Shown here in pieces: positions 8,175 through 15,916 of a stretch of DNA of 32,418 nt. Origin of the DNA: Gammaproteobacteria bacterium (GTDB lineage: Bacteria > Pseudomonadota > Gammaproteobacteria > Pseudomonadales > Azotimanducaceae); NCBI GenBank assembly GCA_009919975.1, contig RGAU01000004.1:1-32418 (forward strand), read 5' to 3'. Within the stretch, counting starts at the first letter, position 1, and each line of letters starts with the position of its first letter. The position numbers were made by a program, and so were the translations under genes. The notes beneath the pieces were generated by a model that was given only the letters and a program-made list of their open reading frames with translations, was not told the origin of the DNA and ran no database searches.

Positions 8175-9691
8175 TTAGAACTGGTTCATGGTGTTGGCGG
8201 CGCCCCCGGCGAGGAGGGCCTTTTCTCCAAGGAAGTATTCCTTGTGATCGTCGCCAATGTTGGAACCCGCAAGATCTTGGTGCTTCACCGCGGCGAGGTC
8301 GCGGCGGAGTTCTGCGCGCTGCACCCCAAGGACGTAGGCCAGCATGCCGTCGTTGCCGAAGTAGCCTTCCGAGAGGCTGTCCGTGGACAGGGCTGCCGTG
8401 TGGTAGGTGGGCAGGGTAATGAGGTGATGGAAGATGCCCGCTTCCCGCGCCGCATCGGCCTGGAAGGACTGGATCTGGCGATCCGCTTCCTGGCCCAGGG
8501 GCGTGGTGTCGAAGCTCACGTCCATAAGGCCCTTCTCGTCCGTGGCCGGATCGGGATAGGCGGACACGTCCTGACCTTCCGCTTTCCAGGTCTCGTAGAC
8601 ATGCTGGCGGAACTTCAGGGTCCAGTTGAAGGACGGCGAGTTGTTGTAAACCAGCTTCGCTTCCGGGCGCTTCTCACGGATCTTGTTCACCATCTCGGCG
8701 ATCTGGCCGACGTGGGGCTTCTCCGTTTCGATCCAGAGAAGGTCGGCGCCGTGCTCGAGGCTGGTGACGCAGTCCAGCACCACCCGGTCGATGCCCGTAT
8801 CCTCCCGGAAGGCATAGAGGCCGTTGTCGAGGCGCTTGGGCCGCACGAGCTTGCCGTCTTGCTGAATCGTGATGTCGCCCTGGCGCAGCTCGGAGAGGTC
8901 CTTGACCTCTTCCACTTCGAGGAAGCTGCAGTATTGGTCGCCCAGATCACCGGCGGTGAGGGAAACGGGGACCTTTTGCGTCAGGCCAGCGCCGAGGGAG
9001 TCGGTGCGGGCCACGATGATGCCCTCGGGGATGCCGAGCTCAAGGAATGCGTAGCGCACGGCGTTGATCTTGGAGATGAAGTCTTCGTGGGGCACGGTGA
9101 CCTTACCGGCCTGGTGCCCACACTGCTTGGCATCGGACACCTGGTTTTCAATCTGGATAGCGCAGGCCCCGGCCTCAATCATCTTCTTCGCGAGGAGGTA
9201 GGTAGCCTCTTCATTACCGAAGCCCGCGTCGATATCGGCAATGATCGGCACCACGTGGGTCTCGTAGTTGTCGATTTTCTCGAGAAGGGCCGTGGTGTCC
9301 TGGCCAGCAGCCCGGGCTTCGTCGAGGGCCGTGAACATATGGCGCAGTTCCCGCGCATCGGCCTGCTTCAGGAAGGTGTAAATCTCTTCGATGAGCTCCG
9401 GCACCGTGGTCTTCTCGTGCATGGACTGATCGGGGAGGGGGCCGAACTTCGAGCGGAGGGCCGCGACCATCCAGCCAGAAAGGTAGATGTAGCGACGATC
9501 CGTGGAGCCGTGACGCTTCTTGACGGACATCATGGTCTGCTGGGCGATGAAGCCGTGCCAGGCGCCCAGGGACTGGGTAAACGGTTCTGCTGGCGCATGC
9601 GCACCACGTACTCGGGATTGATCGCGCCCCATTCCGCCTTGCCCTTCAGGCCTTCGCGGACGGCTTCGATTTCGTTTAGGTAGTTCGACAT
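8175..9691 (-). CDS. aceA: Isocitrate lyase (apparent frameshift near 9579-9581)
   Basis: Main frame contains ICL sequence (DADIDAGFGNEEATYLLAKKMIEAGACAIQIENQVSDAKQCGHQAGKVTVPHEDFI..., KLVYNNSPSFNW). The N-terminus MSNYLNEIEAVREGLKGKAEWGAINPEYVVRMRQQNR is in another frame (start ATG at 9691) and joins FTQSLGAWHGFIAQQTMMSVKKRHGSTDRRYIYLSGW in the main frame. Confidence 0.93.
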
Positions 9692-9734
9692 GGCAAGCTC
9701 CCGTGGGTGAGCAGCGATAGAAAGCGATAGAAGA

Positions 9735-9798
9735 GGAAGCACTCTGGCTAGGCCCCCGGGGAGGGAGGGGGAGGGTTGGAGACCTAGAGAGTGCTTCC
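9735..9798. repeat. Imperfect inverted repeat enclosing a G-quadruplex motif
   Basis: GGAAGCACTCT (9735-9745) and AGAGTGCTTCC (9788-9798) are perfect 11-bp inverted arms; CTAGG (9748-9752) and CCTAG (9783-9787) extend the stem after a 2-nt bulge; loop includes GGGGAGGGAGGGGGAGGG (9758-9775). Confidence 0.85.
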
Positions 9799-9843
9799 GC
9801 TTCCACCGCTACCAGCTGACGGCGCGCACCCTACCAGCCTGAG

Positions 9844-11141: not shown

Positions 11142-11161
11142 GACTGTTAATAAAAACAGCC
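11142..11161 (+). promoter_or_regulatory. LexA (SOS) box upstream of the VRR-NUC/helicase pair
   Basis: GACTGTTAATAAAAACAGCC: perfect CTGT-N8-ACAG core; AT-rich island between the 11121 stop and the 11185 GTG start. Confidence 0.8.
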
Positions 11162-11184
11162 TGTAAATCTATACAAGGTACGCC

Positions 11185-12813
11185 GTGGCGCTTTCCGCCC
11201 CCTCTCCGGTGCCCCCCGGGCTTGGCGACTTTTATCGCGAGCGCGTGCTCGAGTTTTTGCGCTGGGTAGGCGGCTGGGCTCCGGGCCTGTGCCCGGAGGA
11301 TCTGCGGGCCTACGTTCGGGACTTTGAACGCCTCCCCTTGCCGGCGCAGCGCCTCTGGGCGCGCCTGCTACTGCGCAAGGGCCCTCGGTTTATTGTTTCA
11401 GAGCTCACCTACGAGGAAGTTGGCGATCCCACCGGTCCCGTCCTTGCGCTGTTGCTCGGGGGCTTTCTGTCCCTCGAGCACGATGTCCCCGCACGCCTTA
11501 CGTTGCTGCCCCGGGCAACCCTTTTTACGCTCTGCGACGCACTAGGTCTGCCCCGGCCGCGGGATCAGCGCCGGCCGGCCCTGGAGGCGACCCTGGTAGC
11601 TGCGGCTCCGGCGCTCCTGGCGCGGGGCCTGCTGCCGCTCACGGTCCGCCGGGAGCGTGCCCGGGCCACTCAGCGCCTAGGTTTTGCTTACTTCGGTGAA
11701 ACGGAGGGAGACCTGAACGCCCTCGTGGTCTCTGCCCTTCAGCAGCGGCGCTTTGCCCAGGTGCCGAAGGGCGCGCCCTGGCCCTCCCGGGGGGCTTTCG
11801 AGGGGGCCCTTGCGCTCCACGAGGCGGCCGATGGCACCTGGTCCCCCGGGCTTCGGCTGCCCGAGGCGGCGGCGCTGCGCCGGCGGCTCTTCTGTGCCCT
11901 GGCCTGGCCTGGGCCGCGGCCCCGGGACGAAGCGCGGCGGGGTCGAGGGCTATGGCGTTTGGCGCGCCATGCCCGCGCGGCGGGGGAGGAGGCCTTTGCC
12001 CTTCGCGTGCTGGGCGCTCTGCCTCGGGCGGTGGAAGGGCTCGCAACCCTTCGCTGGCTCCATGAAATAGGGGCTCGGGAACAGGAGGCCTGGCGTTTGG
12101 CCACCCTCGACGCGACGCCGGGAGGGGACGTTGCCCGCTACGACTACGGCCGCGGTCGCTGTCGCCCGGCGCCGAAGCTGCCGATGATGCGCGCTCGGCT
12201 GGCTCTGCCCGTGGGGCGTCAGCTTGGGCGGGTGGAAGGGGCCGCCTTGCGCCATCTAGGTGCCTTTCGAGGCTGGCACTGGGAGAACCGCTTCCCCGCC
12301 TGGGTGCTCTATCTAAGCGCCGCCGATGTGATCTTTGCCCCAAGCCCCGGCGCCTTTACCCATCCCCAGCAAACGGCCCCCCACGATCTCTTCACCGAGG
12401 ACTTTTATCCAGCACGGGCCGAGGCCCTCGAGGCACGGTGCGCCGCGCTGGCCTCCGGTGCCTTTGACCTCGAAGCCGCCCAAGGGCTCTGGCACCGCTT
12501 TGGGGGCATCGCCAATGCCCTGGTGCCCCGGCAGCTGCCCAGCTCCGCCCTGTGGCTGGCGATGGGGGCGCTGGCCCAAACCCCGGAGCGCTGGGCGGCT
12601 CTGGTGGCCTGGCTGCTCCGCGCACCCCTGCGCTGCCGCCGGGGTTTCCCCGATCTTACCCTGCTGTCCAAGGACGGTGAGCTCAGCTTCGTGGAGGTCA
12701 AGGGCCCCGGGGATCAGCTCCGGCGAGAGCAGCGGGAGTGGCTGACTCTGCTACCGCGCTGGGGCTTTTCCGCAACCTGCCTCGCCCTGGAGGCTGCCCG
12801 CGATGCTGGCTAG
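11185..12813 (+). CDS. VRR-NUC domain (FAN1-like) nuclease
   Basis: 542 aa, GTG start; C-terminal RRGFPDLTLLSKDGELSFVEVKGPGDQLRREQREWLTLL is the VRR-NUC PD...EVK...Q..W signature. Confidence 0.85.
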   Translation: MALSAPSPVPPGLGDFYRERVLEFLRWVGGWAPGLCPEDLRAYVRDFERLPLPAQRLWARLLLRKGPRFIVSELTYEEVGDPTGPVLALLLGGFLSLEHDVPARLTLLPRATLFTLCDALGLPRPRDQRRPALEATLVAAAPALLARGLLPLTVRRERARATQRLGFAYFGETEGDLNALVVSALQQRRFAQVPKGAPWPSRGAFEGALALHEAADGTWSPGLRLPEAAALRRRLFCALAWPGPRPRDEARRGRGLWRLARHARAAGEEAFALRVLGALPRAVEGLATLRWLHEIGAREQEAWRLATLDATPGGDVARYDYGRGRCRPAPKLPMMRARLALPVGRQLGRVEGAALRHLGAFRGWHWENRFPAWVLYLSAADVIFAPSPGAFTHPQQTAPHDLFTEDFYPARAEALEARCAALASGAFDLEAAQGLWHRFGGIANALVPRQLPSSALWLAMGALAQTPERWAALVAWLLRAPLRCRRGFPDLTLLSKDGELSFVEVKGPGDQLRREQREWLTLLPRWGFSATCLALEAARDAG

Positions 12814-15119
12814 GCAGCTTTCCGTTGGTCATCTGGTCCAGACCCTCTATCGCCAGGGAGGGCTTTTCGATCGCCGGGCCCTGCCCCTAGCCCCCCTTGA
12901 AGGGCTTCGGGCGCAGCAGCGCTACCAGGCGAGTAAGGGCGCTGACTACGAAAGGGAGGTGCGCCTCGCAGGCACCTTCCCTCAGGGCGCGCTGGAGCTG
13001 CGCCTTGGGGGCCGAGCCGATGGCGTTGTCCGGAGCGCTCATGGCTGGATGGTGGAAGAGGTCAAAAGCTACGGTGGCACGCTCGGGGAAGCGCAGGAGG
13101 ATCTCGAACTGCACCGGGCTCAGCTGCGCTGCTACGGCGCGCTCCTGGCCCGGCAGACGCCGGAGTGCCCCGATTCCCTAGCGCTTTGCCTCACCTACGT
13201 GCAGGCCAGCTCCGGGGCGGCGACGGCGGTGCGCTGGGAGGAGCCCACGGCCGCCCTCGAGGCCTTTCTCCAGCAATGCCTGAGGGCCTACGGCGCCGGC
13301 CTCGCCGGGGAGGGGGCCCGCCTTCGGGCTCGGAATGGGGCACTGTCTGCCCTGGCCTTTCCCTTGCCCCAGCCTCGGGCCGGGCAGCTAGCCCTGGCTC
13401 GGGCGGCCTTTCGGGCCTGTCGGCGCGGTGAGGGCCTCTTGGCGGAAGCCCCGACGGGCCTGGGGAAAACCCTTGGGGTGCTCTTCGGGGCCCTCAAAGC
13501 CCTGCCCGAGGCCCGGCAGGAGCGGCTCTGGATTATGACGCCGCGGCGCACCCAGCGGGGGGCCTTTCTCCGAACGCTTAAGGAGACGCTTCCCACGGCG
13601 CTGGCCCTACGGGTGGTAGAGCTGCCCGCGGAAAGCACCCTGTGCCTGGCCGCCGATGGGGTCTGCAGCGGCCCCGCCTGTCCCCACGGCCAGGATTTCT
13701 ATGGGCGAAGCCGTCCCGTACTTCGGGCGCTTCGGGCGCCCCGGCGAGGCGATCGCAATGCGCTTTTCACCACAGCGGCGCTTCGCCGCCTCGGGCGTCG
13801 CCACGGCCTTTGCCCCGTGGCCCTTGCGCAGCGCCTGGCCCGGGATGGGGATGTGCTGCTGAGCGACGTGAATTTTGCCTTCGATCCGCTGCAGCGAAAG
13901 CCAGCCTTGCTGTCCCCGGGGGAGGGGGGCGCCATGCTGTTGCTGGACGAGGCCCATCAGCTTCATGCCCGCGTACGGGGCATGTATCGCCAGGCGCTGG
14001 ATGCGGGCGCCTTACGGAGGGCCCTCGCGGAAGCCCCTGCAGGGCCCTGGCAGGGACCGCTGAAAGCCCTCGTCGCCCACCTCGAGCGCCTCTCGCATGC
14101 CCAGGGGATTGGGCCCTCAGGGTCATCGGGCGGGGCCCTTGCGACGCTGCTCGAGCGGACCCTGCACAGCTTGCGCGAGCTGCCCTTTGCCTCGTCTCTG
14201 CGTCCTTTGCGCGGCGAGCTGCTTCGTTTTCATCGCTTGCAGCAGCTGGACGCAGCACACCCCGGCGCCTTTTGGGAGGCGGCGGTCCCGGGTACGCTCA
14301 CCCTCGCGCTCCTGTCCCCGGCGCCGGTGCTGAAAACCCTTTGGCCCGTGACCCCGGCGCGGCTGCTCTTTTCCGCTACCTTGGCGCCGCTGGCTAGCGA
14401 AGGGGAGGCCCTGGGCCTTCCCGAAAGCCCCACGCTCCGTCTGCCAAGCCCCTTCCCCCGGGAGCGTCAGCTCAGTCTTCTCCTTTCCGACTTTGACCTC
14501 CGGGCCCGGCACCGGGAGCACGCCCTGCCGGACCTCGTCACCTTCCTGACGGCCTGGGCCGAGCAGGCTGGCGGTCATCACCTGGTGGTGGTGCCGGCCT
14601 TTGCGTGGCTCGAGAGGCTCGCGGAGGCCCTTCGGGCAGCGGCGCGAGAGCGCCTAGGCCCGGTGCAGCGCCGGAGCTTGAGCGAGGCGGAGCAGGATGC
14701 CTTCCTTGCCGAGCTTGCCGCGCCGCCCCGACAGGCCGGCAGCCCCGGGGCGGGCCGCCTCGCCCTGATCGTGGCCGGGGGGCGCTTTTCCGAAGGCATG
14801 GATCTTCCCCCCGGGGCCCTCGCCAGCGTGCTCATTCTGGGCTTACCCCTGCCGGCCCCCGATGAGGAGCAGGAAGCGCTGGCGGCTCAGGCAACGGAGG
14901 GGCGCTTTCGAAGCTACGAAGCGCGGGCCCTGCGCAGTGCGCTTCAGAGCGCTGGGCGATTAATACGACGCAGCGCCGATCGCGGCGTGGTGGCCTTTGT
15001 GGATCGACGCTTTGCGGCGTCAGACCTCGCGCCCCTATGGCCCGGGGAGACGCCACCCCGGCGCTGCCATCGGGGCCAGGCCCTGGCCGAATGCGAAGCC
15101 TTTTGGCGAGGGGGCCTAG
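12803..15119 (+). CDS. Fe-S (XPD/DinG-like) superfamily 2 DNA helicase with N-terminal PD-(D/E)XK-like region; 3' end probably at TAG 15117-15119 if one G of a G5 run is extra (ORF track end is 15283)
   Basis: LLAEAPTGLGKTLG (Walker A), LLLDEAHQLH (DEAH), CLAADGVCSGPACPHG...GLCP (four-Cys pattern), SATLAPLASE, QSAGRLIRRSADRG (motif VI). N-terminal GRADGV...WMVEEVKSYGG resembles PD-(D/E)XK. Starts inside the VRR-NUC ORF. Confidence 0.85.
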
Positions 15120-15916
15120 AGGGTTTTGCTGATGAGACGGAGCGCGGCGGCGAGGAGCAGCACTGCGAAGGCCCGGCGCAGGGCGAGGGCCGGGACCCGA
15201 TGGGCCAGGCGGACCCCCTGGGGCGCGGAGATCATGGCGCCGAGGGCCAGGGCCGCCACCGCCGGCAGGTAGAGTGCGCCTAGGGTGCCGGAAAGGGGCA
15301 CGGACGGCAGCACGGCGTAGCCCAAGGCCCCGGCGAGGGCCACCGGGACGCCGAGGGCGCTGGATTGGGCGGCGGCGCGCACGGGGCTGATGTTAAAAAA
15401 GATCAGCGTGGGCACGATGATGTTGCCTCCGGCGATGCCCGCGAGCCCCGAAAGCAGACCGGCGCCCAGAGCGAGCCCCGTGGTGCCCGCAGCTCCCGGG
15501 TGCCGGCGCTGCGCCGGGGGCTGCCAGCGAGTCAGGAAGATCACGGCAATCGCCGCGAGGAAGGCACCGAGGAAGCGGGTTAGGGCGATCTCCGGGAGCA
15601 GGCTTGCTAGCGTGCCGGCGCCTAGGCCCCCAAGCATCAACCCCGGTGTCCAGCGCCGGAGCAAGGGCCACTCCAGGGCCCCCCGCCGCCACTGGGCCCG
15701 GCCGGCGGCGAGGCTGGTAAAGACCATGGCGCCAAGGCCTGTGGCCACGGCCTCCCGAATGCCCAGGGGGAGGGCGAAGGCGTCGAAGATCAGCACCAGG
15801 GACGGTACGATGACCACGCCGCCACCGATCCCGAGCAGCCCGCCGAGAAAGCCCGTGCCGAGGCCCAGGGCAAAGCAGAGGGGGAGAAAATTGCCCAGGG
15901 GCATCACATCAGGCAT
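15116..15916 (-). CDS. TauE/SafE-family sulfite exporter-like membrane protein
   Basis: GLGTGFLGGLLGIGGGVVIVPSL and GLLSGLAGIAGGNIIVPTLIF repeat halves typical of TauE/SafE; start set at MPDVMPLGNF. Confidence 0.85.
   Translation of the reverse strand: MPDVMPLGNFLPLCFALGLGTGFLGGLLGIGGGVVIVPSLVLIFDAFALPLGIREAVATGLGAMVFTSLAAGRAQWRRGALEWPLLRRWTPGLMLGGLGAGTLASLLPEIALTRFLGAFLAAIAVIFLTRWQPPAQRRHPGAAGTTGLALGAGLLSGLAGIAGGNIIVPTLIFFNISPVRAAAQSSALGVPVALAGALGYAVLPSVPLSGTLGALYLPAVAALALGAMISAPQGVRLAHRVPALALRRAFAVLLLAAALRLISKTL

Follow-up and report, generated by a model that had tools for sequence, protein, structure and literature searches.

Two overlapping genes behind a predicted LexA box encode a FAN1 homologue and an EndoDinG helicase, a candidate SOS-induced DNA-repair pair

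We propose that two adjacent genes in a gammaproteobacterial contig, one encoding a FAN1 homologue and the other an EndoDinG helicase, form an SOS-induced (i.e., LexA-repressed) DNA-repair operon in which the helicase would expose or trim DNA and FAN1 would cut flaps or unhook crosslinks. We put the probability of this reading at roughly 0.6. The genes lie in a stretch of 32,418 nt, hereafter the window, and their features are listed in Table 1. The parts are known, and their conserved, SOS-linked pairing appears to be undescribed in the literature we searched; key FAN1/VRR-NUC papers fall outside that search, so priority is not certain. A near-obligate and repeatedly LexA-boxed pair ties bacterial FAN1 to EndoDinG, making both testable in laboratory bacteria, and may offer a minimal model for how FAN1 cooperates with an XPD-family helicase.

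Table 1. Coordinates of the predicted operator, the two genes and their motifs in the window
Feature	Coordinates	Strand	Details
Predicted LexA-type operator, GACTGTTAATAAAAACAGCC	11142..11161	.	Perfect core CTGT-N8-ACAG at 11144-11159
Bacterial FAN1 (VRR-NUC) homologue, 542 aa, GTG start	11185..12813	+	Pfam FAN1_HTH and VRR_NUC; phmmer to 4r89
EndoDinG: XPD/DinG-type Fe-S SF2 helicase with N-terminal nuclease domain, 826 aa as read	12803..15283	+	Top PDB match 9kqh
Predicted PD-(D/E)XK (Cas4/RecB-like) domain, residues ~1-182	12803..13348	+	E52, GRxD73, E86xK88, Q107xxxY111; motif-I His = Gln38
Walker A APTGLGKT (residues 216-223)	13448..13471	+	
Fe-S cluster cysteines C281, C288, C293, C337	13643..13813	+	51-homologue alignment
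DEAH box (residues 382-385)	13946..13957	+	

The original prediction placed a perfect CTGT-N8-ACAG just upstream of a GTG start, and this holds: 25 bp separate the core from the GTG, and it is the sole perfect core in the window, where shuffling expects 0.15. The source assembly (2.5 Mb, 79% complete) encodes LexA and contains two perfect cores genome-wide, the operator before FAN1 and one in the recA promoter (TACTGTCTTTTCGTACAGTA), while lexA has its own one-mismatch box directly upstream (CTGGATAAAATCACAG). A reversed-pattern control over the whole assembly gave three matches, so the core count alone is not evidence, and it is the positions before recA and before FAN1 that matter. A relaxed CTGK/MCAG motif was uninformative in this genome, with 146 matches per strand. 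We reject a chance box on location and on recurrence in relatives (see below), although across the genome such cores are no more frequent than the control pattern. With a core near the start codon, the same motif at recA, and a LexA encoded in the genome, the pair most likely sits behind a predicted LexA (DNA-damage) switch.

The protein behind the box had been called a VRR-NUC protein, and both FAN1_HTH (3.7e-11) and VRR_NUC (8.6e-10) match it above the Pfam cut-offs. It thus joins FAN1_HTH and a C-terminal VRR-NUC in one protein of ~550 aa, the arrangement of the bacterial FAN1, VRR-NUC, KIAA1018 clade. Residues 6-522 align by phmmer with Pseudomonas aeruginosa PaFAN1 (PA1865; PDB 4R89 and 5Y7G), a full-length match sharing the two domains and the catalytic residues, and the active-site E, PD and ExK are all present (E367, P489-D490, E504 and K506). 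Identity to its relatives is only about 21-28%. The literature searched deals with PaFAN1 as a protein on its own; closer, Pseudomonas-type orthologues adjoin EndoDinG on its upstream side and have a LexA-like box. We found no account in that literature of an in vivo partner for the structurally studied bacterial FAN1. Most VRR-Nuc subfamilies, KIAA1018/FAN1 included, adjoin DNA-metabolism genes (eLife 2022, PMC9635880).

The second gene overlaps the first by 11 nt, and the four-cysteine Fe-S pattern, Walker A motif and DEAH box predicted for it are all found. The Fe-S positions C281, C288, C293 and C337 are Cys in 49, 44, 49 and 49 of 51 homologues, respectively, giving the CCCC set of EndoDinG, and Helicase_C_2 (Pfam) is strongly matched. 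The top PDB match is 9kqh by both sequence (5e-50) and fold (6.6e-52), with XPD next by fold, and the full-length AlphaFold2 model has a pLDDT of 87. Two other labels were considered and rejected. As a canonical DinG or YoaA, the protein misses the NCBIfam equivalog cut-offs (64.4 vs 598 bits for DinG, 79.7 vs 680 for YoaA). As a CasDinG (type IV CRISPR), it should keep other company: none of the nine adjoining ORFs scanned is a Cas gene, and all four Fe-S cysteines are kept, whereas the CasDinG Fe-S is vestigial. In its own genome, this EndoDinG may be the sole DinG-family member, as no second DinG/YoaA-like helicase was matched in the 79%-complete assembly.

EndoDinG is a subgroup named in 2025 (Cheng 2025, PMC11981726), and the window protein belongs to it by its predicted architecture, a DinG-like helicase whose N-terminus has the PD-(D/E)XK fold. 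The same review predicts the nuclease residues H (alpha2), E, D, E and K, reports endonuclease activity of Bdellovibrio DinG (an EndoDinG) as unpublished data, does not mention VRR-NUC or FAN1, and assigns no pathway (PMC11981726). Bdellovibrio DinG and, structurally, Finegoldia magna DinG (9KQH) have the N-terminal PD-(D/E)XK domain, the Fe-S CCCC and the XPD/DinG motor in common with the window protein, which differs in its motif-I residue (Gln in place of His) and in its association with FAN1 and a LexA box. No paper describing structure 9KQH was found in the literature searched.

The operon we favour could work as follows. Damage would activate RecA, LexA would be cleaved, and FAN1 and EndoDinG would be made together. 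The XPD/DinG-type motor would load onto single-stranded DNA wherever a gap, a crosslink or a stalled fork offers it and move 5'->3', opening the duplex and yielding flaps or single strands. The Cas4/RecB-like N-terminal domain would nick or trim the strand fed to it, and FAN1 would incise 5' flaps and unhook crosslinks, as PaFAN1 does. We infer the polarity and enzymatic activities of both proteins from their families, and we likewise infer the hand-off between them, the order of the cuts, any complex, and crosslinks or flaps as the substrate.

Analogy with FAN1 and XPD/DinG homologues suggests that the three activities may be joined in a single machine that handles crosslinks or flaps. In eukaryotes, FAN1 and an XPD-family helicase are both used in crosslink repair. 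FANCJ and XPD have the Fe-S SF2 helicase core in common with EndoDinG (sequence match to FANCJ, 7e-8) but are without the nuclease domain that it carries, so the parallel is an analogy. The boldest form of the idea is one physical, SOS-induced FAN1-EndoDinG machine, a bacterial counterpart of eukaryotic FAN1 plus an XPD/FANCJ-type helicase. Within it, crosslink unhooking or fork clearance would take two incisions, made by FAN1 and the helicase's Cas4-like nuclease. We consider this boldest form rather unlikely.

A survey of gene neighbourhoods, called for in the original prediction, found the pair to be conserved. Using a set of 195 genomes from the same taxonomic order, the window's included, with EndoDinG called at E <= 1e-20 and FAN1 by profile, we found EndoDinG in 59 genomes, the window's among them. 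FAN1 is immediately upstream in 55 of the 58 other same-order EndoDinG loci, mostly with overlapping gene ends. Both genes occur in 57 of the 195 genomes, EndoDinG only in 2, FAN1 only in 20 and neither in 116 (Fisher 2e-29, uncorrected for phylogeny). Named genomes with the pair include Marinobacter, Halomonas, Pseudomonas, Herbaspirillum, Massilia and Trinickia. Pairwise distances of FAN1 and EndoDinG are congruent (rho 0.91; permutation maximum 0.27), which fits co-inheritance, but plain vertical descent is expected to give the same.

EndoDinG occurs without FAN1 in Firmicutes and some betaproteobacteria, and its Firmicutes loci have no constant partner gene, with varying upstream genes (a formyltransferase, unrelated ORFs). 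In some Bacillales-type genomes, EndoDinG lies directly 3' of the formyltransferase gene (loci L115 and L119). Downstream of FAN1-only loci, the genes are unrelated and include no shared helicase. Since 20 of the 195 genomes have only FAN1, and EndoDinG stands alone in Firmicutes, neither strictly needs the other. FAN1 homologues without EndoDinG at three loci (L205, L206 and L207) are longer than usual, at ~720-740 aa, and the one at L207 has a near-consensus LexA box.

To look for LexA boxes in relatives, we scanned from -150 to +60 of each FAN1 start with a LexA PWM built on 18 E. coli LexA sites, at a threshold of at least 14. The window's own operator scores 14.6, below most of the E. coli sites behind the PWM. 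A LexA-like box is present before 23 of the 86 pair loci, whereas shuffled and gene-internal controls gave none; perfect cores occur in 7/59 loci vs 0.6% of background windows (binomial 8e-8, relatedness ignored). About three quarters of pair loci are without a clear box by this E. coli-based PWM. The expectation that the box would be conserved upstream in relatives is thus borne out as recurrence but not as a general rule, being confined to a minority of lineages; judged by these predicted sites, SOS control of the pair is recurrent across relatives and not universal. UV-C and ciprofloxacin are reported to induce P. aeruginosa PaFAN1 (PA1865), and the gene numbered next to it, PA1866, likewise changed after UV-C (PMC12796719). 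PA1866 may be the EndoDinG.

LexA-like boxes also precede each gene alone: 2/16 FAN1-only genes and some EndoDinG genes without FAN1 (Cupriavidus, Polaromonas; boxes of Gram-positive type in Listeria and others, 6/53 vs 0.2%). Together with the occurrence of each gene without the other, this is what one would see if FAN1 and EndoDinG were co-regulated neighbours with separate jobs, i.e., general SOS genes with no common substrate or contact. The near-obligate adjacency of EndoDinG and FAN1, with overlapping genes, in this taxonomic order argues the other way, and we judge separate jobs to be unlikely. At two betaproteobacterial loci without FAN1 (Cupriavidus and Polaromonas; L138 and L190), the box retained upstream of EndoDinG is a strong one.

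At the EndoDinG N-terminus, a GRADG...VEEVK segment had been put forward as PD-(D/E)XK-like. AlphaFold2 gives this domain a confident model (pLDDT 94.2, pTM 0.88) with the PD-(D/E)XK fold, and Foldseek ranks 9kqh first, followed by SSO0001, RecE, AddA and human EXO5. A profile search returns 9kqh at 3.7e-55 and SSO0001 (4ic1), which we take to be a Cas4 protein, at 2.6e-6. Pfam PDDEXK_1 is matched individually by 16 of 58 members, and in the 58-sequence N-terminus alignment L11, G19, E52, G70, R71, D73, E86, K88, Q107 and Y111 are invariant. E, GRxD, ExK and QxxxY form the pattern of RecB/Cas4-like PD-(D/E)XK nucleases. Alignment and model agree that the N-terminus is a genuine PD-(D/E)XK domain, as proposed, and that the helicase belongs to the EndoDinG subgroup.

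Among the predicted catalytic residues, E52, D73, E86 and K88 are present in the window protein, and the His of motif I is Gln38 (codon 12914-12916). The same His38-to-Gln change is seen in four homologues, of which three belong to the family of the window's source, so it is a lineage trait and not a sequence error. Gln38 could weaken or alter the nuclease, with altered metal use as one possibility, and nuclease activity of the window EndoDinG is uncertain for this reason. Carried to its end, this would make the domain catalytically dead or DNA-binding only in the window's lineage, leaving EndoDinG as a helicase that feeds FAN1. That E52, D73, E86, K88, Q107 and Y111 are invariant in 58/58 sequences points the other way, and we give a dead nuclease a low probability.

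Least probable, and in our view very unlikely, is that FAN1 and EndoDinG act in defence against phages or plasmids, with the nuclease-helicase degrading incoming DNA, and are under SOS control since infection damages DNA. The best PADLOC match is typeIV_DinG (PDLC01439, 4.6e-71), and Hna, another DinG-like SF2 protein with a PD-(D/E)XK nuclease, is anti-phage (PMC13381803), but the Hna nuclease is C-terminal and Hna has no Fe-S cluster, whereas the EndoDinG nuclease is N-terminal and its four Fe-S cysteines are kept, unlike in CasDinG. The flanking genes are housekeeping (isocitrate lyase, gamma-glutamyltranspeptidase, TauE and an AMP-binding enzyme), and 72,556 plasmids yielded one match, on a 1.3 Mb replicon; despite the typeIV_DinG match, these two results argue against a mobile defence island, as do the congruent FAN1 and EndoDinG distances against defence. 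Searching viral_contigs with the window protein as the only query gave no relative. A phage collection gave 12 matches, all <60% identity; these come from short or unannotated records (Listeria, Enterococcus, faecal) and look like Firmicutes EndoDinG.

The gene end needs correction. The helicase gene had been taken to stop at 15119, but the TAG at 15117-15119 lies in another frame, sharing a CTAG with the stop of the convergent TauE gene, and the in-frame stop is at 15283. The last ~50 residues (15109-15283) have no counterpart in relatives, which end near residue ~770; this tail is predicted to be disordered and runs antisense to the TauE gene. We suspect that the frame has shifted, naturally or through an assembly error, close to the G5 run that immediately precedes the TAG, and the natural end of EndoDinG is possibly near residue 772. 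Elsewhere in the window, the open frame of the isocitrate lyase gene (8175-9806, minus strand) seems to extend too far at its N-terminal end, and its Pfam match falls into three separate stretches.
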